Shown here: positions 4,767-23,462 of the stretch, one piece after another
Layout of the letters: each line of letters opens with the position of its first letter
Position numbering within the stretch: position 1 is the first letter of the stretch
Origin: a virus
Length of the DNA: 23,748 nt
Strand: one strand, 5' to 3'
IMG/VR virus record: IMGVR_UViG_3300037493_001361
Span: 1 to 23,748 of that record
Program-made: the position numbers and the translations under genes
Notes under the pieces: generated by a model
Seen by the model: only the letters and a program-made list of their open reading frames with translations
The model's database searches: none
Told to the model about the DNA's origin: nothing

Positions 4767-5648
4767 TTAAGCGTGTGCGCTATTCTTAGCGAAGTTTTCA
4801 GCTTGTTGTAAATTGAAATCAGAAACTGACTTCAACCCCTTGTTAGTCTTACTATCTGTTATAATACGATTAGTAGGCTGTGTGTTTCCTTGCGGAGTTA
4901 CATCAGAAACTTTTAACATAGGGCGAACTGCACTTGTGGCGAAGTCGCTAAAATTAACTGCCTTGTTATCTTCCATATAAACCAAATCAGGCTTATCGGA
5001 ATAAACAAGTTTTATGTTTTTGCCGTCACGAACTGCTTTTAAGTTCTTTTCGGCTAATTTACTTCTCAATAATTCATTTGCACCGTTTAATCGGATAGCT
5101 TCAGGTATTGCTTCCGAATAAGTCTTTGCTGAAAGTTCAGAAGTTACCGCGAAATCTAAAATTTCATTTTCAGCATCCTGTTTTACTTTAGCAACTTGCG
5201 CCTCGAAATCTGTTTTAGCCGTCAATATAGACTGATTCAGCTTGTTGATTTCATCTTGCAATGCTTTCTTATCGCCACTTGACGCGCCAACTTTAGCGGC
5301 TTGCAAATCAGCAATCTTCTTTGTAAGCGCGCCAACCTTTTTATAAGTTGATTTCTCTAATTTCAATTCTGCCTTACTTGCATCATCTAATCCGTATTCG
5401 CTCATAAGGTTTTCAAGTTCGCTTTCCATTGGCGAAAGTGTTTTACCTTTAAAGTGAACTTCTAATGCTGGTGAGTTCTTTGCACTTTCCAAAGACATTG
5501 AACTATTAACGTAATCTAATAGCGGAGTGCCAACAGAATCGTCAATTTGTGAATTAGATGAAAGTAAGTCTGCAAATTTAGCATCAGTAACGTCTAAACC
5601 TGCTTTGATAATTAGTTGCTTTACAATGTCGCGTAGTGGCAATGCCAT
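4767..5648 (-). CDS. Scaffold-like head assembly protein
   Basis: I place the start at ATG 5648 (MALPLRDIVKQ), giving 293 residues. A longer open frame reaches back to 5747, but its added N-terminus crosses the divergent regulatory region and does not look coding. The protein is rich in Lys, Glu, Ala and Gln, with a predicted coiled coil around residues 75-165 (KKIADLQAAKVGASS, LQDEINKLNQSILTAKTDFE). It ends in a low-complexity, Asn- and Thr-rich tail (residues 245-293). Such an acidic-basic coiled-coil protein directly before the capsid gene is typical of phage scaffolds, which guide procapsid assembly and are then removed. No protease motif is seen. The upstream region also serves the divergent plus-strand island. 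Confidence 0.65.
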   Translation of the reverse strand: MALPLRDIVKQLIIKAGLDVTDAKFADLLSSNSQIDDSVGTPLLDYVNSSMSLESAKNSPALEVHFKGKTLSPMESELENLMSEYGLDDASKAELKLEKSTYKKVGALTKKIADLQAAKVGASSGDKKALQDEINKLNQSILTAKTDFEAQVAKVKQDAENEILDFAVTSELSAKTYSEAIPEAIRLNGANELLRSKLAEKNLKAVRDGKNIKLVYSDKPDLVYMEDNKAVNFSDFATSAVRPMLKVSDVTPQGNTQPTNRIITDSKTNKGLKSVSDFNLQQAENFAKNSAHA

Positions 5649-5665
5649 ATTTTGAATTTTAGTTC

Positions 5666-5690
5666 GGTGTAAAAATAATAAGATTACACC
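5666..5690. promoter_or_regulatory. Inverted repeat in the divergent intergenic region (operator candidate)
   Basis: GGTGTAA (5666-5672) and TTACACC (5684-5690) are perfect 7-base arms 11 bases apart. They lie between the scaffold start at 5648 and the plus-strand promoter candidate at 5702-5725. As DNA this could bind a dimeric repressor. As RNA it would be a hairpin in the scaffold leader. The neighbouring ribbon-helix-helix-like gene (5751) is an obvious candidate ligand, but this is inference. Confidence 0.4.
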
Positions 5691-5701
5691 TTGTTTTACT
5701 A

Positions 5702-5725
5702 TTTGAAAAGTTTTGTATATATTTG
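5702..5725 (+). promoter_or_regulatory. Bacteroidota-type promoter candidate for the plus-strand island
   Basis: TATATTTG at 5718-5725 matches the TAnnTTTG -7 box of Bacteroidota. A TTTG at 5702-5705 lies upstream, but the 12-base gap is shorter than the usual 19-21, so the -33 element is uncertain. A transcript starting about six bases on would have a leader of roughly 20 bases before ATG 5751. TATTTGAAAA (5700-5709) recurs at 16683-16692 in front of the lipoprotein gene. Confidence 0.45.
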
Positions 5726-5750
5726 CCGTTATATTAAATAACACCACATT

Positions 5751-5921
5751 ATGAAAAAGGATGAAAAGCCAAAAGCTATATTATTAAAAGATATTAGCGA
5801 TGAGGTTTGGGATAAAATGTGTGAAACAAAAAGAAAGATTCTTGCTAACAATAAGAAGCGCGATTATGTTAGCCATGAAGAAGCTATTTATAAACTAATT
5901 AAAAATAACTGCAATGATTGA
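5751..5921 (+). CDS. Small ribbon-helix-helix-like protein (56 aa), possible regulator of the island
   Basis: This 56-residue basic protein opens the plus-strand island. AILLKDIS (residues 9-16) could be the beta strand, SDEVWDKMCETKRKILANNK (16-35) the first helix, and SHEEAIYKLIKN (41-52) the second. That order matches Arc/MetJ-type ribbon-helix-helix DNA-binding proteins, although the loop between the helices is somewhat long. The ATG follows the TATATTTG box by 25 bases, and the TGA overlaps the next gene by eight bases. An inverted repeat stands about 60 bases upstream. The simplest reading is an autoregulator of the divergent promoter region. It might instead be an unrelated small phage protein. 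Confidence 0.5.
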   Translation: MKKDEKPKAILLKDISDEVWDKMCETKRKILANNKKRDYVSHEEAIYKLIKNNCND

Positions 5922-6591
5922 GATGAAACAAATAGACGGAAATAGTATTGACCTGTCTAATAGCGTGGCATTTGTTGAGCATTACAACAAACCAAATTCA
6001 TTCGCTAAACAGATTATTGAAAAAGAAATAAACGCAGGTTTGTGGTATGATGATATACTATTCAATCTACCGAATGATTCTGTAATAATTGACGCGGGGG
6101 CTAATGTGGGTTTGTTTAGCTTGTATATGTTGCCAAGAATTAAAAAAGTTTATTGTATTGAGCCATCTCACGTTAAAACACTTTATTCAATACTTCTAAA
6201 ACTTGCTAATTCATTTTACATTTCAGAATCTGCACTATTCAATTATGATGGTTGGTGTTCATTATTTAGCAATGAAATAAACTCAACAATGAATAACGTT
6301 GTATCTAAAAAAGGTGATACACTATGCCATACGCTTAAAACGTTTACCAATGAAAATAAAATAGAATCAGTTAATTTGCTAAAATTAGATATTGAGGGAG
6401 GTGAACAACAGGTAATAATGGAAGATGAAACTATTGGCGAGGCTTTATCTATTTGCAAGAATGTATTTATAGAAGTTCACCCGATACCATACGGTAACGC
6501 AGACGAACAAGGGATAATAAATAAAATGATTTCATTTGGGTTTAACCATAAAAAAGGGGCGCGAGAATTAAGCCACTACTTTACAAGATGA
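5914..6591 (+). CDS. FkbM-family SAM-dependent methyltransferase
   Basis: This 225-residue protein has class I methyltransferase motifs in FkbM order: IIDAGANVGLFSLY (residues 58-71, SAM-binding motif I), VYCIEPS (79-85, the acidic end of beta-2), LLKLDIEGGE (155-164) and FIEVHP (185-190). LKLDIEGGE is the characteristic FkbM motif. Family members methylate hydroxyls of sugars or small molecules, so a glycan acceptor fits its glycosyltransferase neighbours. ATG 5914 overlaps the upstream TGA; an in-frame ATG at 5923 is a possible alternative start. The gene ends in an ATGA overlap with the next one, so it is part of one operon. The motifs are clear; the substrate is unknown. Confidence 0.85.
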   Translation: MIEMKQIDGNSIDLSNSVAFVEHYNKPNSFAKQIIEKEINAGLWYDDILFNLPNDSVIIDAGANVGLFSLYMLPRIKKVYCIEPSHVKTLYSILLKLANSFYISESALFNYDGWCSLFSNEINSTMNNVVSKKGDTLCHTLKTFTNENKIESVNLLKLDIEGGEQQVIMEDETIGEALSICKNVFIEVHPIPYGNADEQGIINKMISFGFNHKKGARELSHYFTR

Positions 6592-6749
6592 AAACTAAAT
6601 TTACTACACAACGCGAAGAAGAACTACACAACGATTTAAAAACAGTTCTTGAAATGATTTCGACTGCTAAACATACTATTGCAGACGTTTCATTATTGCA
6701 GTTGAAGATTAAGGCGGTTGAACTAAAAGAAAAGCATAATATAAAATGA
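6588..6749 (+). CDS. Small hypothetical protein in glycan island (53 aa)
   Basis: This 53-residue protein is joined to both neighbours by ATGA overlaps, which argues that it is translated. It is strongly helical and charged: REEELHNDLKTVLEMIS and SLLQLKIKAVELKEKHNIK could form two amphipathic helices, as in small coiled-coil or helical-hairpin proteins. No family recognised. It may be an accessory subunit of the island enzymes or an unrelated phage gene. Confidence 0.55.
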   Translation: MKTKFTTQREEELHNDLKTVLEMISTAKHTIADVSLLQLKIKAVELKEKHNIK

Positions 6750-6955
6750 TGACAAAAGAATTTAAAGAAACCTATAACAGAATAGTCACATCATATCAAT
6801 GCGTAAATGCCGCATCTATGCCAAGTTCATGTAACGATTTATCAAACTCAAATAGTTTAGTTATATACGTTGGGTGCGGTAGATTCAAATGCGTTACGGT
6901 AGATGATTTGAATGAAGTAGAATTGTTTTGCAAATCAATCGAAAATATAAAATGA
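6746..6955 (+). CDS. Small hypothetical protein in glycan island (69 aa)
   Basis: This 69-residue protein overlaps both neighbours by four bases (ATGA). An in-frame ATG at 6749 is an equally good start. The composition is Ser-, Asn- and Cys-rich in the middle (Cys19, Cys29, Cys45, Cys49), with YVGCGRFKCVTVDDLNEVEL near residues 42-61, a beta-alpha pattern. No family recognised. Overlap spacing is the main evidence that it is real. Confidence 0.55.
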   Translation: MMTKEFKETYNRIVTSYQCVNAASMPSSCNDLSNSNSLVIYVGCGRFKCVTVDDLNEVELFCKSIENIK

Positions 6956-7710
6956 TAGTCAATAGCTTTTGGGTAAGCGGTAAACTTCAACCGATAAACA
7001 TGCTTTGCATTAAATCATTTATTGCATACGGGCATGAGTTTCATTTATACTGCTATGATTTAAGCGATATGTTCGGGCAACTATCAGAACAACTAACCTT
7101 AGATGAATTAACCAGCGTTCACATTTGTAGTGCAGAATTTATACTGCCACAATCAGAAATATATTACTACAAAAACATGATGGACTGTAAAGAGCATTTC
7201 AAGTATGGCGGTATAGCTGAAAGATTGAAAGCTGAATTACTTTATGCTATTGGCGGTTGGCATGTTGACTTAGACGTTATCTGTTTAAAATCGTTTGAAG
7301 ATTTAACCGAAGATTATGTTTTAAGACCGATTGAAGATACTGTTGTAGGTAATATTATAAAAGCACCTAAAGAATCTAAATTGGCTTTAGATTACGTGAA
7401 CTGGACAAAAGGTATAGATGCTGATAATACTATTTGGAGTAAGTCTTTTGAGGGTTTAGGTTTAGCAGTTATAAATAACGGGATTGAACATTTCATAGTA
7501 GATAAATCTGTATTTGGTATTGATGAATTAGAATGGTTTGAGCCGGTATATAAAAGACTTGAATACGAATATCAAATTTCACACTTTAAAGATTCATACG
7601 CATTGCACATGTGCCAAGCGTGGAGCGTTGAATTAGGATGGGATAAAAACTACCAGCAAGGGAGTTATTATGATTCACTACTAAAAAAATACAACATAAA
7701 TGGAAGATAA
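6952..7710 (+). CDS. GT32-like glycosyltransferase (DxD type)
   Basis: The preferred start is ATG 6952, which overlaps the preceding TGA as ATGA and gives 252 residues beginning MIVNSFWVSG. A start at 6928 would overlap more and is less likely. The fold signature of capsular sugar-transferase (Gly_transf_sug, GT32) proteins is present: an N-terminal strand, a Lys-Ser-Phe helix, then YGGIAERLKAELL (residues 85-97) and IGGWHVDLDVIC (100-111). The latter holds the metal-binding Asp106-Leu-Asp108. The family transfers sugars from nucleotide donors in the cytoplasm. With the FkbM methyltransferase it suggests a modified glycan product. The acceptor is unknown; a phage virion protein or host surface polymer are both possible. 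Confidence 0.8.
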   Translation: MIVNSFWVSGKLQPINMLCIKSFIAYGHEFHLYCYDLSDMFGQLSEQLTLDELTSVHICSAEFILPQSEIYYYKNMMDCKEHFKYGGIAERLKAELLYAIGGWHVDLDVICLKSFEDLTEDYVLRPIEDTVVGNIIKAPKESKLALDYVNWTKGIDADNTIWSKSFEGLGLAVINNGIEHFIVDKSVFGIDELEWFEPVYKRLEYEYQISHFKDSYALHMCQAWSVELGWDKNYQQGSYYDSLLKKYNINGR

Positions 7711-7870
7711 CCAAGAAGAAGCATTAAAGGCAATTTACTTATTGCGAGAAGTAATAAAGCGAAAATTGTTTTCAGGTAGAACACACAGAAACATAAGGCG
7801 CGAACTTGGTTTGAGTTTAAAGAAGTATTTAGCAATAATGAGTTTACCAGAACTACCAAAAAATAAATAG
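7700..7870 (+). CDS. Small basic hypothetical protein (56 aa)
   Basis: This 56-residue protein overlaps the end of the GT32-like gene by 11 bases and ends directly before the next ATG, with no spacer, so it fits the operon. It is basic and helical. RNIRRELGLSLKKYLAIM (residues 30-47) vaguely resembles a helix-turn-helix, but the match is weak. No family recognised. Confidence 0.5.
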   Translation: MEDNQEEALKAIYLLREVIKRKLFSGRTHRNIRRELGLSLKKYLAIMSLPELPKNK

Positions 7871-9328
7871 ATGATACCTGCATTTGTAATAAACATGCCT
7901 AACTCTAAAGAACGTTACAGGCTTTTTCAAGAAGAATGTAAACGTGAAAATATAGAAGTTGAACGGCTTGATGGAGTTGACGGATTGCCTTATTTGCAGA
8001 AAGGAGATAAGCCATTAACGCGCGGTATTATCGGTTGTATTATGGCGAGTAGTAACGCGATAAGATTAGCCAAAGAACGCGGTTATGAATCTGTTTTAAT
8101 ATTTGATGATGATGCTGAATTGTGCGATAATTTCAAAGAGGAGTTAGAAAAGGTAATGAGTGAACTTCCTAAACATTGGGATTTTTTACGGTTACATAAA
8201 ACAACATCGGGAACTCCTAAAATAGAAATCTATTCAGATAATCTAAACCAAGTTTACGGAGGCAATGGAACGTATGGCTATGTAGTTAATTCTCGTTTTT
8301 ATGATGATTTATTGAGATGGCAAAAGGATGAATTTAGAAAGCCATCTAAACAGGATATTGGCTTTATAAAGACTTATGATGTTATCCTACAAGAAATGAT
8401 GAATACCTATTCATTCTTTGAGGTTAAAACTTCTTTAGTATTTCACAGGGACGGATATTCAGATAGAATGGGCATGGATATGAAATACGGACTGAATAAA
8501 CCTGTAAAAGAAGTTTACAAAAAATATGATGGAACTGAAATTGTGATTTCAGAATACAAGCCAGTAGTTAAGATATACTACCCGTTGCACGTTCAACTAC
8601 ATGCTGAAAAGTTAGCTGAAACTCTTTGTAGTTTAGGCTATAACGCACAAGCCACAAGAGAAGTGAATGATGATGATTGTTTGTATATTTTGTATTGTGC
8701 TTTTCAAATTAAGAACCTACCTAAAAAATATATTGTTTATCAATGTGAGCAATGGAACAGCGGTTGGTTTGATAAGTGGTATTGGGATATTATGGACGGG
8801 GCTTTGCAGATTTGGGAGTTTGCCGAATGTAACTTAGAAAAATACCCTGCTAATCTATTGTCTAAAGTTTCTTACGTTCCAGCTGGGTTGGTAAACGGCA
8901 GAATTGAAACTAAGAATATTGATGTTTTGTTTTATGGTGCAATCAGTAAACACAGATTAGACGTAATAAATAACGTAAGGCGAACCGGAATACACATCAT
9001 GTATAAATCTGATGCTTATGGCGAACAAATGAAAGCTATTTTAAGCAGGTCAAAGGTTGTTTTAAATGTTCACTTTTATGAAGATGGATATTTAGAGGCT
9101 TTCAGAATTAACGAGGCTTTGTCTTGTGGTTGCCATGTAGTAAGTGAAAGAAACGATAAAGCATTCTACCCTAAAAAATACCGCGATTTGGTAAGGTTTG
9201 GAACTAACACTAATGAATTATGCTTTGCGATTAGAAACGCGCTAAATACTACACCTAAATATGATTTAAGCGTGTTGGATAACACTAACTACATTAAAGA
9301 GGCATTAAGCAAACTTATCACGAAGTAA
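7871..9328 (+). CDS. Two-domain glycosyltransferase: GT25-like plus CgeB/GT-B-like
   Basis: This is a 485-residue protein with two apparent catalytic domains. Residues 1 to about 200 resemble GT25 (LPS beta-galactosyltransferase type): AFVINMPNSKERY, then LTRGIIGCIMASSNAIRLAK (49-68), and an acidic FDDDAE (79-84) at the metal-binding position. Residues about 225-485 resemble CgeB/Glyco_trans_1_2 proteins: KNIDVLFYGAISKHR, then SRSKVVLNVHFYEDG, then EAFRINEALSCGCHVVSE. A two-step enzyme could add two sugars in turn or pair a catalytic with a binding domain. It is the last gene of the island and overlaps the convergent MuF gene end by 24 bases. No terminator is seen between them. Domain calls rest on motif order; the donor sugar is unknown. 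Confidence 0.8.
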   Translation: MIPAFVINMPNSKERYRLFQEECKRENIEVERLDGVDGLPYLQKGDKPLTRGIIGCIMASSNAIRLAKERGYESVLIFDDDAELCDNFKEELEKVMSELPKHWDFLRLHKTTSGTPKIEIYSDNLNQVYGGNGTYGYVVNSRFYDDLLRWQKDEFRKPSKQDIGFIKTYDVILQEMMNTYSFFEVKTSLVFHRDGYSDRMGMDMKYGLNKPVKEVYKKYDGTEIVISEYKPVVKIYYPLHVQLHAEKLAETLCSLGYNAQATREVNDDDCLYILYCAFQIKNLPKKYIVYQCEQWNSGWFDKWYWDIMDGALQIWEFAECNLEKYPANLLSKVSYVPAGLVNGRIETKNIDVLFYGAISKHRLDVINNVRRTGIHIMYKSDAYGEQMKAILSRSKVVLNVHFYEDGYLEAFRINEALSCGCHVVSERNDKAFYPKKYRDLVRFGTNTNELCFAIRNALNTTPKYDLSVLDNTNYIKEALSKLITK

Positions 9329-10201
9329 TTTAGGCACAATAGCATCACTAACAGGAACTAAATGATGCTCGCAGTTATATCCACCTGCATAAACCTCAAA
9401 GTTATTTGGATTAGTGCCGTCAATCATACCTTGCGGTAATCCTGTTTTATCGTAAATTTCACCTTTCATTTCTTTGAACTCTTTGAAGTTTCCTTTTATA
9501 ATTTCCGGAAACTCTGAACGGTGTATAAATTCTTTTTCTCTACACGCCTCACAGAATGTTCTTGAGGTTTTAATTAGCGCACCACGATAGGCAAACCAAT
9601 TAAACCCTAAATCATTTGTTACCGTCTGCATATATTGACGCGAATACTGGTTAAGTGAATCAGTTGTAACCTGCGAAGTATAACGCTCTAATGCACCAAC
9701 AGTATCGTTATTAGCTGTAATGAAGTTTCTTATCTGTGTAGCCATTTCAGACCAACTACCGCCCGTTGTTGAGTTAGTTAGTAGTATATCATGGACGGGT
9801 TGGATAAGCGCGTTATTTAACCCTGCTTCTGTCAAATAATCAATAGCTGAAGTGATTGACTGATTACTTATTTCTTTTAATACTGGTGTTGGCTTAAACT
9901 TCTTTGAAACACTTTCAAAATACTTATTCTGAATGTTAGCCACTTCATCAAAAGACTTAATAAACTTATCTAACTTTTCAGGATAATCAGACTTCTTAAT
10001 TATTGAATAGATACGGTCTTTAAACGCGGCTATTTTGCGAAGATTAGAAACGTTTACTTTTATAGTATCACCTGTTGTATCTAAGTCCTTAATAAATATT
10101 TCAATCTCACTTGAAATTTGTTTTTGAATAGCCGGCATTGATTCTTGAAAATCGCTAACCGAACCATCCAAAGTTTCAATAAGTTGTTTTATATAGTCCA
10201 T
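9305..10201 (-). CDS. MuF-type minor head protein
   Basis: This 298-residue protein is helical in its N-terminal two-thirds, then has the C-terminal MuF pattern: NQYSRQYMQTVTNDLGFNWF, RTFCEACREKEFIHRSEFPE, and GGYNCEHHLVPVSD near the end. The CEAC and NCEHHL elements match the Cys/His cluster of phage Mu gpF and SPP1 gp7-like proteins. These are minor head proteins that associate with the portal and are packaged into the procapsid. It follows the portal with a 45-residue gene between them. Its ATG overlaps that gene's TGA (TGATG). Its 3' end overlaps the converging plus-strand glycosyltransferase by 24 bases. Confidence is high because of the adjacent portal. Confidence 0.8.
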   Translation of the reverse strand: MDYIKQLIETLDGSVSDFQESMPAIQKQISSEIEIFIKDLDTTGDTIKVNVSNLRKIAAFKDRIYSIIKKSDYPEKLDKFIKSFDEVANIQNKYFESVSKKFKPTPVLKEISNQSITSAIDYLTEAGLNNALIQPVHDILLTNSTTGGSWSEMATQIRNFITANNDTVGALERYTSQVTTDSLNQYSRQYMQTVTNDLGFNWFAYRGALIKTSRTFCEACREKEFIHRSEFPEIIKGNFKEFKEMKGEIYDKTGLPQGMIDGTNPNNFEVYAGGYNCEHHLVPVSDAIVPKLLRDKFA

Positions 10202-10338
10202 CAGTTTAAATGAAAATACATATCGCGTTTATAATTCAGTAAAACGGTGTGGTAAATATATCTGTAATGCAAAATTGAACCGCTTTCAAACATTAAAAAG
10301 CCGGTGCATCCAATAACATATTCCCATTCGCTTATCAT
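10201..10338 (-). CDS. Small gene between portal and MuF (45 aa)
   Basis: This open frame fills a 133-base interval between portal and MuF that would otherwise look empty. Its ATG shares ATGA with the portal stop, and its TGA shares TGATG with the MuF start, so both ends fit coupled translation. The 45-residue product (MISEWEYVIGCTGFLMFESG...) is aromatic-rich (six Tyr, two Cys-free termini, one Cys) and has no clear membrane helix. No family recognised. The evidence is the overlap at both ends; codon usage cannot be judged at this length. Confidence 0.6.
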   Translation of the reverse strand: MISEWEYVIGCTGFLMFESGSILHYRYIYHTVLLNYKRDMYFHLN

Positions 10339-12185
10339 TCTCCACCTTCTTGGTTTATCGGTATTACATTTGTAATCGGAGGCTGTTTAGCTGTAATATT
10401 TTGCTTCATTGAATTATTTGAAATAACATTAGCAGCATAGCCCTCTAAAATTGCAACCTGCTCCATTAAATTCATATCGCAAAAATCTTCATTCTCAGTT
10501 AAAGCGCGTTTAACGTAAAAGCCAATATTGCAAGATATAATGTAGTCAATTTCTCTACAACCTCCACCTTGCTTAATAGCTAACTTTTCATCTTCTGTTT
10601 TAGCAGCTAAAGGGTCAAGTTTAAAATTCAATTCTAATTCTTCTTTAACGGCAGGTTGTTCACTAAATTTCTTTGAGCAAAAATCTATCTCAAACGCCTT
10701 TAAAGTAATATCAGAAAGCCCACCTGATTGCGTTGCACTTCCTAATTCTTGAATTAAATACTGCGAAGAAAGTAAATCAAACTTTTGAGGCACTGGTATA
10801 TCCGGGCAAAGTTCACGTCTTGTTTCTAAATCGGGAACAACTAACCGATAGCGATAATCGCATATAACCCAATAAAGCATATCCATTACCCCTACAATAT
10901 CTTCAGCTATTGTATAAACAAAGTTATTCAATTCATCTCTGTCAACTTGTTTAGCTTCACCTGAAATAGCCAAAGGAACTTGTGTAAGAAACTGCATATT
11001 GATAGAAGAAAGGGCATCAAACTTATGTTTGTTTACGCTCTTTTCCATTGCGTCAATTATAGCAACAACATCACCTTTAGCAACATAACCAAACGGAGGA
11101 ATAGGTGCGGGGCTTTCTCCCATATTCTCCTTTGAACTTCTTACAATGAATTTCTTATATGGTCCTGATACGCCTTGACTACCTGTGCCTTGACAGGACG
11201 GACAAGTTATGTAACGTTGTTTTTGTTGTTTGCCGTATTGCTCTAATATTTTACCTGTTGCTATTCCGTTTACATCTTTACAATTCATACAAGGCTGTGA
11301 AGCCCACTCCCATTTTTCGGGATATAACGCGCCAACTTTAGCACCTTGCAAATCTGAATACTCGCGCACCGCCTCATTTAGTGATGGCGTCATTGAACTA
11401 ATACGACTTTCCCAAACTGAATATTCCTCATGTGTTTTAAGGAATATACCTTTAATTCTGATAATAGGAATATACCCTAAGTTATGGTCGTAAGAATCAA
11501 CTAACTTTATGTTTTTATTGCTATCAGCTTCTGCCCATGTTTCAATGGTATTTGCTTTTACAACATACCACATATCACCCTGTTGCATTTCTGACTTTGA
11601 ATCGGTGTATTGATATTTATTCAAAGACTTCAAAACAGCATATTGATTTTCAATGTAGTCAAGTATCTGGTCGCTATTAAAAATAATAGGGTAAGGTTTT
11701 AAATATTCTTGGTCAGTTTGTGGACGCGCTAAGGGGCAAACAACTATCAACCCGTTCGGGTCAATCAAATACTCTTTCAATAAAACACCAAATACCCACA
11801 TAGTAAGTGAACCGTAATAAGGAAACTTCTTTTCGCAATATTCAAATAGTGTTTCATATTCAGGTATTGCGCTATTTTGAGTTTCGCTATCGTATTCAAT
11901 AGACCAATCAGAACTACGTCTAATCTTACCCAATGAAGTAATTACACTTGTGATGGTTTCTTTAGTTTTAGATTGGTATATACTTTTTCTAAATGCGTGT
12001 ATAGCTTCGCTTTCATGTGGTCTGCGTTCTTCAATCAACTTATAAGGGTATAAGCCGTCTGCATGTATCTTTAGTTCTTCATACATTCTTTTACACTCCT
12101 CGTAAATAGGTGAACGTCTGCGCCCTTTGAAGTAATCAATTAAGGCTTTGTCAGTTAGATTTTGAACGGTGTCGATGCTTATCAT
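10335..12185 (-). CDS. Portal protein with zinc-ribbon-like insert
   Basis: This is a 616-residue protein. The position directly before a MuF gene and the size fit a portal, the dodecameric ring through which DNA is packaged. The sequence runs from helical N-terminal segments to a central region (PYPIIFNSDQILDYIENQ, SYDHNLGYIPIIRIKG), as in phage portals. The oddity is a CMNC pair (residues 299-302) and a CPSC pair (328-331) with 25 residues between, followed by QGTG. That spacing fits a zinc ribbon or knuckle inserted in the middle of the protein. It overlaps the glycosyltransferase gene before it (ATGA) and the small gene after it. The portal assignment is by context and length; the metal site is visible only as Cys spacing. 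Confidence 0.75.
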   Translation of the reverse strand: MISIDTVQNLTDKALIDYFKGRRRSPIYEECKRMYEELKIHADGLYPYKLIEERRPHESEAIHAFRKSIYQSKTKETITSVITSLGKIRRSSDWSIEYDSETQNSAIPEYETLFEYCEKKFPYYGSLTMWVFGVLLKEYLIDPNGLIVVCPLARPQTDQEYLKPYPIIFNSDQILDYIENQYAVLKSLNKYQYTDSKSEMQQGDMWYVVKANTIETWAEADSNKNIKLVDSYDHNLGYIPIIRIKGIFLKTHEEYSVWESRISSMTPSLNEAVREYSDLQGAKVGALYPEKWEWASQPCMNCKDVNGIATGKILEQYGKQQKQRYITCPSCQGTGSQGVSGPYKKFIVRSSKENMGESPAPIPPFGYVAKGDVVAIIDAMEKSVNKHKFDALSSINMQFLTQVPLAISGEAKQVDRDELNNFVYTIAEDIVGVMDMLYWVICDYRYRLVVPDLETRRELCPDIPVPQKFDLLSSQYLIQELGSATQSGGLSDITLKAFEIDFCSKKFSEQPAVKEELELNFKLDPLAAKTEDEKLAIKQGGGCREIDYIISCNIGFYVKRALTENEDFCDMNLMEQVAILEGYAANVISNNSMKQNITAKQPPITNVIPINQEGGE

Positions 12186-13090
12186 CTTGTTTGTCTTTGT
12201 TTATTCCATTGCTTTTTGTTGTATGCCTTATAATGATAAGGTAAATTTAATCCCTTTGCGTGTGCTTGTGCTAATTGATTATAACGCTGTAATATTGTTT
12301 CTGGTATAACATTGCCTCCGATTGAATAGCCATAGTAATTATTTAATACCTCATGCCATGACATTTGCCGGTCAGCTAAACCCCAATAAACAACTACAAA
12401 GTTATCTTTGTGAGGATAGTAACCTAAAACACAAGCGGCAATGTCAAAAGCTAATTCATCCGGTATATCCTGCCCAAACTCCGTTGCCTTTACTTTTGGG
12501 TTGTCGAATATTTCACGAACAAAGTTGAAATATTTTTCATTTGATTCTGTCCGTTTGAAATAAATAAACTCCGATGCTAAATGGTAGAACTTCCCTTGTG
12601 TTTCATACTTTTCCTTTACTTCGTTAATATCGCACCAAATAGAGAAAGTTTTTTTCAAAACAAGTTGCGACAAATCAGCAAAACCTCTATTCTGAAAAGT
12701 AAAATCAATATCACTAAGAGAATCAAACAACTCCGAAATAGATTTAGTAGGAATCCAAATCATATCAGCGTCTAAAAATATAGTTGTTTCAAACGGGCTT
12801 AATTCATATACACAAGTCTTTGCTTTTATGTAAACGGTCTTTTCGTTTTTAGTGTAGTATTCTTTCGGACATTCAGCAAACGAAGTAAACAATGATTTAT
12901 GTTTCTCCGTTAAATGATTTAAAGCATCATCTGAATACACTAAATGTATATTAACTTCTTTGTCTTTGTAGCGTATTGATGCCGCTAAATTAGCCGCCAT
13001 TCGTCCGTATTGTGGCGAACCTAAAGCGATTAAAACAATGCCGCGCCCTTGCGGTTTAACCTTATTTTTACTTCCTAATTTTCTACCCAC
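12182..13090 (-). CDS. GT-A-type (GT8-like) glycosyltransferase beside the portal
   Basis: This 302-residue protein has a nucleotide-diphospho-sugar transferase pattern: an N-terminal strand GIVLIALGSPQYGRMAANLA, then FETTIFLDADMIWIPT (residues 100-115), with Asp107-Ala-Asp109 as the metal/donor site. A later ASEFIYFK and IPDELAFDIA follow the usual order of GT8-like enzymes. An unusual N-terminal leader GRKLGSKNKVKPQGRG resembles the GRPKGSxN AT-hook-like segment of the terminase small subunit in this window. Its start overlaps the tail gene before it by eight bases, and its stop overlaps the portal start (ATGA), so it is an integral member of the structural operon. It may glycosylate virion parts; the target is not known. 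Confidence 0.75.
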   Translation of the reverse strand: MGRKLGSKNKVKPQGRGIVLIALGSPQYGRMAANLAASIRYKDKEVNIHLVYSDDALNHLTEKHKSLFTSFAECPKEYYTKNEKTVYIKAKTCVYELSPFETTIFLDADMIWIPTKSISELFDSLSDIDFTFQNRGFADLSQLVLKKTFSIWCDINEVKEKYETQGKFYHLASEFIYFKRTESNEKYFNFVREIFDNPKVKATEFGQDIPDELAFDIAACVLGYYPHKDNFVVVYWGLADRQMSWHEVLNNYYGYSIGGNVIPETILQRYNQLAQAHAKGLNLPYHYKAYNKKQWNKQRQTR

Positions 13091-16713: not shown

Positions 16714-16911
16714 ATGAAAAAAATAATCTTCGCATCTATTATCATAGCTTCTTTCAGTTCTTGCACTAAACAATGTTTCAAATGTTCTATTGAAAAAGTT
16801 GATAGAAACGGTCAGGTAATAGGAACTACCAATGAAAGATATTGTATTGACAAAGATAGTTATCAATACCAAACAATTAAGAACGACCCCGCTTGTAAGG
16901 CGAGTATTTAA
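16714..16911 (+). CDS. Small predicted lipoprotein, possible superinfection-exclusion moron
   Basis: This 65-residue protein begins MKKIIFASIIIASFSSCTK: charged start, hydrophobic core, then FSSC with Cys17 as the lipobox Cys. That is a signal peptidase II site, so the mature product would be a 49-residue lipoprotein anchored in the host membrane. The mature part has four further Cys (CFKC, YC, AC) and a charged beta-turn region. The gene is on the plus strand, alone, between two minus-strand tail genes, with its own promoter-like element and only one base to the tape measure stop, a typical moron layout. Small phage lipoproteins can block superinfection at the cell surface, but no homology to a known one is visible. 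A remnant of host DNA is the alternative. Confidence 0.65.
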   Translation: MKKIIFASIIIASFSSCTKQCFKCSIEKVDRNGQVIGTTNERYCIDKDSYQYQTIKNDPACKASI

Positions 16912-22489: not shown

Positions 22490-22690
22490 CTAATTTTCCT
22501 TTTGCAGTTTAAAAAACATCGGCTTTAGTTTATCGGGTATCTTCTTAACCAACCTACCGCCTTTAAAGTTATCACTTACAATTCCTTTTAGCTGACTGCA
22601 GAATCCTTTTGAGGTTTCAAATATAAAATATAATCGCTTATCGGAGGTTACTAAGTTAAATCCGTCTTTGGTTTGGTAGAGTTTAGGCAT
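22490..22690 (-). CDS. Small hypothetical protein (66 aa)
   Basis: This 66-residue basic protein (MPKLYQTKDGFNLVTSDKRL...) has the beta-rich look of a small single-domain protein and no family I recognise. Its start overlaps the Mom-like gene's end by eight bases. Evidence is the overlap and the complete frame; function unknown. Confidence 0.55.
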   Translation of the reverse strand: MPKLYQTKDGFNLVTSDKRLYFIFETSKGFCSQLKGIVSDNFKGGRLVKKIPDKLKPMFFKLQKEN

Positions 22691-23462
22691 GTTTTCTTTT
22701 TGGGTATGGTTTTATTAAATGCTCAATTTTTGATTTGTGATATTGTTGTTCTTTTTTTGTGCCTGTAAATAAAAAGTATCTGTGTTTACTATTTTGCTTT
22801 ATCCTAACTGCATCTGGGTATATCTTCAAAATATCTTCCATTCTTTGAGAGCCTACCTTTTGCCTTATATTTCTACTGCCAACTAATTTACCTTTTATCA
22901 TCCACGCCTCCCTATCTATTGTCTTTCCGTTGGCTTTAGGATTACTTTCCCGCATACTTGCAACGTAGTGGAAATTACAAGCCTGATAGATAGTTCCTAT
23001 TTCCCCCGCTAAATGGTCTGTTGTTGCTGTTACTATTTTATATTTTTTGGGTAATAATTTTACCGCGCTCATTATCAATTTGCTATTTGTATTTATTGGA
23101 GTCCAATGTAAACAAACGCCCCTGCTTAATAATATTATTTTGCCTGTGTAATCGTATTTATCCCATACACCTAAATTTTCTGTGTATTCTTGACCGAAAA
23201 CAACTACACCGCCACAAACATTGTCGAAAAATATACCAAAAGCGAAAAAGTTTACAGCTGGCATACAGCCCAACCACTCATATTCAATAATCATTTTAGC
23301 GGCAGAATGTAAATCAATTTCCTTTACTACTGCTTTCTTTAAATCTGTATCTAAATTGCACCAATAATTGCCAAAGAGATTATTCAAATCTGAAATAGAC
23401 TTTTTATCTCTTATGATTTTTTGGTGAGCAACCCCTATATCGAATACCTGTCCTATCATCAA
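22683..23462 (-). CDS. Mom-like / GNAT-fold protein, possible DNA modification enzyme
   Basis: This 259-residue protein shows a GNAT-like order: DLHSAAKMIIEYEWLGCMPA (residues 51-70), FAFGIFFDNVCGGVVVFG (73-90), LSRGVCLHWTPINTNSKLI (112-130) and TTDHLAGEIGTIYQACNFHY (147-166). The last two blocks match the pattern of Mu Mom-family proteins, which modify adenines in phage DNA to block restriction; a similar GTxYxAxNW element also occurs in DruA-type proteins, so the family call is not final. It lies just after the VRR-NUC gene and ahead of terminase, fitting late DNA modification before packaging. A four-base overlap joins it to the nuclease gene. Catalysis was not checked residue by residue. 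Confidence 0.6.
   Translation of the reverse strand: MMIGQVFDIGVAHQKIIRDKKSISDLNNLFGNYWCNLDTDLKKAVVKEIDLHSAAKMIIEYEWLGCMPAVNFFAFGIFFDNVCGGVVVFGQEYTENLGVWDKYDYTGKIILLSRGVCLHWTPINTNSKLIMSAVKLLPKKYKIVTATTDHLAGEIGTIYQACNFHYVASMRESNPKANGKTIDREAWMIKGKLVGSRNIRQKVGSQRMEDILKIYPDAVRIKQNSKHRYFLFTGTKKEQQYHKSKIEHLIKPYPKRKHA

Follow-up and report, generated by a model that had tools for sequence, protein, structure and literature searches.

Seven plus-strand genes stand inside a phage head module that is otherwise encoded on the minus strand: are they a dedicated glycan system, or passengers at a site that takes up many kinds of genes? The locus lies in the IMG/VR record IMGVR_UViG_3300037493_001361, a phage fragment of 23,748 bases, which was analysed whole and is called the window below. 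The minus strand of the window carries the terminase, tape measure, tail, portal and capsid genes together with the genes at the MuF and scaffold positions, and the island (5751-9328) is packed between the last two. An earlier note on this DNA had proposed that the island could build a methylated glycan on the virion or rebuild a host surface sugar. With high confidence, we read the MuF-scaffold junction as a conserved accessory-gene slot of the moron type in a group of Bacteroidota phages. Relatives swap cargo freely at this junction, and the locus was therefore taken as a slot with its own leader gene and not as a glycan system as such; by comparison of gene content, what is constant is the site and not the glycan set.

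Genes of the island

The slot of the window and its flanks were annotated as follows, with ratios of nonsynonymous to synonymous substitution (dN/dS) given against the closest relative, L005 (IMGVR_UViG_3300020044_005518; portal 98% identical).

4767-5648, minus: scaffold-position gene, left flank of the slot, assigned by synteny (between MuF and the major capsid protein gene), with orthologues in 30 or more relatives
5649-5750: divergent spacer with a promoter-like motif, TATATTTG, 33-26 bases 5' of the first cargo gene
5751-5921, plus: leader (first cargo gene), 56 amino acids, matched by the leader-family profile
5914-6591, plus: FkbM methyltransferase, 225 amino acids (PF05050, 1.6e-9; phrog_8156, 8e-12)
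6588-6749, plus: small gene A, 53 amino acids; L005 copy 96% identical, dN/dS 0.05
6746-6955, plus: small gene B, 69 amino acids, in the window only
6952-7710, plus: GT32-like glycosyltransferase, 252 amino acids (PF04488); L005 copy 90% identical, dN/dS 0.13
7700-7870, plus: small gene C, 56 amino acids; protein identical in L005, dN/dS 0.02
7871-9328, plus: two-domain glycosyltransferase, GT25 (residues about 1-200) and CgeB/GT4-like (about 235-485); L005 copy 90% identical, dN/dS 0.12
9305-10201, minus: MuF-position gene, right flank of the slot, downstream of portal; short form with no C-terminal extension

All seven open reading frames of the earlier note were confirmed. Adjacent cargo genes abut or share 4-11 bases, the pattern of a coupled operon, and the last one overlaps the 3' end of MuF by 24 bases. 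The scaffold gene starts at 5648, leaving a divergent spacer of 102 bases, and its product had no match in a Pfam search. Pfam matches bore out the FkbM identity (PF05050, 38.6 bits against a cut-off of 22.7; S-adenosylmethionine motif DAGANVG and DIEGGE intact) and the GT25/CgeB-like identity (PF01755, 6.4e-12, 46.2 bits against a cut-off of 24; PF13524, Glyco_trans_1_2, CgeB-like, 3.4e-6). In the GT32-like protein the DLD motif was intact and the PF04488 (Gly_transf_sug) match (3.9e-4, 21.5 bits) fell just below the cut-off of 23; its start is most probably at 6952 and not 6928, since this ATG is common to the window and L005. The three small genes named in the note were also present, and neither they nor the first gene matched a family in the Pfam search. 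Small gene C looks helix-turn-helix-like by eye, and no homologue of small gene B was found in any fetched relative.

Measured against L005, dN/dS was 0.02-0.13 in the cargo genes where testable and 0.04-0.12 in the head genes, so the cargo genes were considered real and maintained under purifying selection, and chance open reading frames were ruled out. No Rfam RNAs or tRNAs were found in the window. An AlphaFold2 model of the GT25/CgeB protein, built from two sequences only, reached a predicted local distance difference test score (pLDDT) of 33.5 and was discarded. In the linker of this protein (residues about 208-235), a 14-residue stretch absent from the L005 copy resembles a 152-amino-acid protein that adjoins the scaffold gene in L005, a possible recombination scar.

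Comparison with close relatives

An opposite-strand block was found at the same MuF-scaffold junction in both L005 and the more distant L003 (IMGVR_UViG_3300010885_048176). L005 DNA was 93-95% identical to the window in the flanks, 89% in the shared cargo and 71% in the first gene; L005 is without FkbM and small gene B, and carries the extra 152-amino-acid gene. L003 DNA was similar from scaffold to the end of the first gene (5912) and resumed similarity only at the MuF stop (9328), its intervening cargo encoding GT2 proteins, an FkbM of its own (32% identical to that of the window) and unassigned proteins. The window leader was 87% identical to the L003 leader and 69-70% identical to the L005 leader, whereas over the rest of the genome L005 is the closer relative; the first gene itself has thus been exchanged. 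The search of related phages that the earlier note had proposed returned the same block in L005, and different cargo or none in other lines.

The slot across related phages

Profiles of the tail and portal proteins added about 160 viral loci, in which MuF and scaffold were mapped. About 100 related contigs and prophages had a cargo slot at this junction, ranging from 213 bases to 8.7 kb and holding up to 16 genes, which run mainly opposite to the head operon and reach the MuF stop. Cargo-free relatives have a gap of 0.2-0.45 kb, usually with one same-strand gene of 65-130 amino acids; MuF and scaffold, described in the earlier note as normally adjacent, are thus close together in such phages but usually have a gene between them. 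Glycan cargo (GT2, GT7, GT11, GT25, GT32, GT47 and FkbM families across the group) was gained at least five times on the portal tree. PAPS-reductase-like proteins also occur among the cargo of relatives, and the sets assigned were as follows.

L180: GT7, GT47, two FkbM, Methyltransf_24, GT11, GT2
L162: GT7, FkbM-GT47 fusion, GT11, GT2, two NUMOD/HNH endonucleases
G531 (host contig): leader, GT2, GT11, Methyltransf_24, FkbM-GT47, GT7
L175: asparagine synthase-like, GT2, hexapeptide transferase
L177: glycan cargo
L137 and L159: GT25
L179: GT7
L158: GT2
L145 (7369-8106) and L146 (4013-4744): RNA ligase
L153 (14043-14702): ThyX
L164: DUF3440, ParB-like and SNF2-like proteins
L172: ADP-ribosylglycohydrolase
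L014 and G594: lipoprotein

A clade of eight (L025, L027, L028, L029, L033, L041, L050 and L051; the FkbM/Imm clade below) carries FkbM or Methyltransf_24 genes; six members have FkbM, seven have a second methyltransferase, and T4 Imm-like proteins (Imm_superinfect; 5e-14, 2e-13) were found in the slot. Homing-type NUMOD/HNH endonucleases lie inside the slot of L162 (15521-16111 and 18485-19072), L177 (15707-16396) and L072 (14037-14633) and are a possible means of cargo exchange. As a side observation, MuF itself has a C-terminal extension in 31 of 123 relatives, and three of these extensions match Pfam domains (L019, 16767-18287, ADP-ribosyltransferase; L014, 9035-10645, M78 peptidase-like; L023, 14866-16215, CdiA_C); these three proteins are candidate MuF polymorphic toxins in phages of Bacteroidota.

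Leader family and promoter motif

The first cargo gene belongs to a leader family of proteins of 50-80 amino acids. A profile built from 17 first genes was searched against 13,967 open reading frames (193 loci, 2.56 Mb; one locus counted twice) and gave 32 matches. All of these lie in the MuF-scaffold junction and run opposite to the head genes, whereas junctions made up 6.7% of the DNA searched. Of 20 loci checked, 18 had the leader as the cargo gene nearest to scaffold, and it accompanied glycan sets as well as RNA-ligase and other cargo. In the FkbM/Imm clade the first gene is of another type (71-75 amino acids) and does not align with the leader family. A tblastn search with one leader against 50,697 phage records gave no match; the profile was too degenerate to scan contigs. 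The earlier note had called the first gene a possible regulator, a guess that profile searches did not confirm: its shape suggests, by eye, a ribbon-helix-helix protein, and searches of PDB and Pfam profiles gave no ribbon-helix-helix match.

The Bacteroidota -7 promoter element TAnnTTTG (PMC7366714) was present within 90 bases upstream of the leader in 20 of 32 cases, compared with 6.4% of shuffles (p 1.6e-16 with relatives counted singly; kinship inflates the p value, not the contrast), and lies at -33 of the first cargo gene in the window. We infer from this motif that the cargo has its own promoter. A sigma-70 promoter scan was uninformative, and no intrinsic terminator was found at the MuF end with a tool that covers simple intrinsic terminators only, its sole site being 5636-5648 (shuffle mean 2.3). 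Tentatively, the leader may be a small DNA-binding slot keeper that controls or marks an insertion platform and enables whole antisense operons, be they glycan sets, immunity proteins or RNA repair, to be exchanged within the head module without disturbing virion assembly.

Morons likewise have their own promoter, lie on the opposite strand within structural genes, vary in presence and carry host-modifying cargo (PMC7067206); an example is STMMW_20121, which is antisense to lytic genes (PMC7067206). The slot shares with them the insertion among structural genes, the variation between close relatives and, as a sequence motif, the promoter; a terminator of its own was not found. It differs from morons in the one fixed junction, the dedicated leader family common to most cargo sets and the size of up to 16 genes. 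The moron phenomenon itself is already known; what is new is the slot-specific leader family.

Hosts and lifestyle

Relatives of the tail were found in Terrimonas, Sphingobacterium and Sporocytophaga genomes, a first genome scan with the tail profile having given no matches. Among 396 genomes from the order to which Terrimonas belongs (which we take to be Chitinophagales), the portal profile gave full-length matches (E < 1e-190) in six; in 395 genomes drawn across the phylum its matches were all short and weak. The phage genes of G802 (a contig of 7.3 Mb) and G594 are embedded in bacterial contigs, a tyrosine integrase gene lying 20-31 kb from portal, and these loci were therefore taken to be prophages. 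Integrase genes were also present in the viral records of the glycan-cargo phages L180 and L175; L162 and the two records examined from the FkbM/Imm clade (L025 and L050) gave no integrase, so that lysogeny is not a prerequisite for cargo. Searches by tblastn with portal or capsid turned up a 25% match in Polaribacter phages and otherwise no isolated relatives; the phage group is large and almost uncultured.

Target of the glycan cargo

The window cargo is, with good confidence from its enzyme families, a glycan-modifying set. The methylated-glycan set of the earlier note is supported as to content by these families and by other glycosyltransferase and FkbM sets that recur at the junction in at least five lineages. 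We favour, at about even confidence, the host envelope as target and superinfection exclusion as outcome, because of the Imm-like proteins and lipoproteins in the slots of relatives, the cargo's own promoter and the prophage state. Transcription of the cargo would start at the host-type promoter in the spacer beside scaffold and run to the MuF stop, host RNA polymerase reading it before or independently of the late genes, and the leader would tune this transcription. The GT32-like and GT25/CgeB-like enzymes would add sugars, one of which FkbM would methylate. Being soluble, these enzymes would act on a glycan or glycoprotein of the host envelope, either soon after infection or in the lysogen, and competing phages would no longer bind the altered receptors.

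Several observations weigh against the host envelope as target. No membrane protein, flippase or lipid-carrier enzyme was found in the window cargo, whose enzymes are soluble (no transmembrane segments, maximum hydropathy 1.3); the classical gtr-type surface route is thus absent, and the enzymes would need a cytosolic precursor. P22 gtrABC serotype conversion (PMC11436027) is similar in that a phage supplies a sugar modification by which other phages could be excluded, but the window cargo has no flippase, bactoprenol glucosyltransferase or membrane-spanning transferase, and a Pfam search of it returned no GtrA flippase, GtrB or membrane GtrC family. The likeness to T4 Imm comes from slots of relatives that hold Imm_superinfect beside FkbM genes; Imm-like and lipoprotein cargo occur only in relatives and not in the window phage, which is itself a fragment. 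For many cargo sets (RNA ligase, ThyX, PAPS-reductase-like, ADP-ribosylglycohydrolase), no role at the surface is evident.

Less probably, though still a serious possibility, the cargo glycosylates and methylates a virion protein, extending a first sugar added by a core GT8-like enzyme of the head operon, with variable glycans that shield or diversify the particle. The genes concerned are as follows.

10335-12185, minus: portal, the anchor for finding relatives (phrog_7376, 7.7e-13)
12182-13090, minus: core glycosyltransferase of the head operon, outside the slot; GT8-like fold, invariant DxD

Orthologues of the core enzyme adjoin portal in most relatives, and its AlphaFold2 model (pLDDT 91.6) had glycogenin and LgtC as top PDB matches (E about 1e-8); by this predicted fold it is a separate candidate for virion glycosylation. 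The presence of such a conserved enzyme beside portal speaks for a virion target, as does the solubility of the cargo enzymes. Of 83 phages that have the core enzyme, 21 carry glycan cargo, compared with 0 of 21 that lack it (Fisher p 0.006). Once phylogeny is allowed for, this association rests on five gains and is not significant (P 0.18), so that it gives no firm ground for the proposal that glycan cargo needs the core glycosyltransferase. Glycan cargo is also often missing where the core enzyme is present. In Cluster O mycobacteriophages (Corndog), an O-methyltransferase and three glycosyltransferase genes lie between portal and protease, and capsid modification has been proposed (PMC4351075). 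These genes resemble the window cargo in their enzyme families and in their position within the head module; they are, however, on the same strand as the head genes, transcribed late with them and conserved in the cluster, whereas the window cargo is on the opposite strand, with its own promoter, and is swapped between close relatives. The earlier note's remark that no named system has this content and place needs qualifying to this extent, Corndog and morons both coming close.

A target unrelated to either surface is rather unlikely, be it the bases of phage DNA, a regulator of the host or glycoproteins that are secreted. The functionally mixed slot cargo (RNA ligase, ThyX, DUF3440) and a Mom-family DNA-modification gene elsewhere in the window are in keeping with such a target, as is a weak match of the GT25 protein to TAGT (TET-associated glycosyltransferase; E 0.03). 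That match is far under the cut-off, however, no TET/JBP or base hydroxylase is present in the fragment, and GT25, GT32, GT11, GT7, GT47 and FkbM are families characteristic of glycans on surfaces or proteins.

It is very improbable that MuF polymorphic toxins have their immunity genes in this slot and that the island is a by-product of the resulting hypervariability, even though a small open reading frame usually comes after MuF toxin genes (PMC5576092) and the hypervariable MuF 3' end and the toxin-like C-terminal domains of three relatives recall such loci. The window MuF is short (298 amino acids, ending 7 residues past the conserved part) and has no C-terminal toxin extension; immunity genes would be expected on the same strand, and the cargo here is antisense and consists of enzymes. 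Toxin-like MuF extensions may account for the variability of this junction, but not for the role of the island.

Misassembly of a host polysaccharide locus into the phage, which the earlier note had named as a refutation, can be dismissed, since independent contigs have the same block with exact junctions and the 24-base overlap, dozens of phages carry opposite-strand cargo at this site and nothing was found in favour of misassembly.

If the slot and its favoured target are read correctly, the leader and the MuF-scaffold flanks provide a sequence handle for collecting the accessory cargo of this phage group, which would be rich in glycan enzymes (GT families 2, 7, 11, 25, 32 and 47), and host surface versus particle as the target of phage glycan genes becomes testable, as does the question of how operons antisense to the head genes are accommodated when those genes are transcribed late.

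Other genes of the window

A putative lipoprotein of 65 amino acids (16714-16911, plus; lipobox SSC) is encoded antisense between the tape measure and tail genes, and a similar putative lipoprotein stands at the same place in L003 (5280-5468), marking a second small antisense slot. The Mom-family DNA-modification protein (PF25680, 1.5e-24) is encoded at 22683-23462 on the minus strand.

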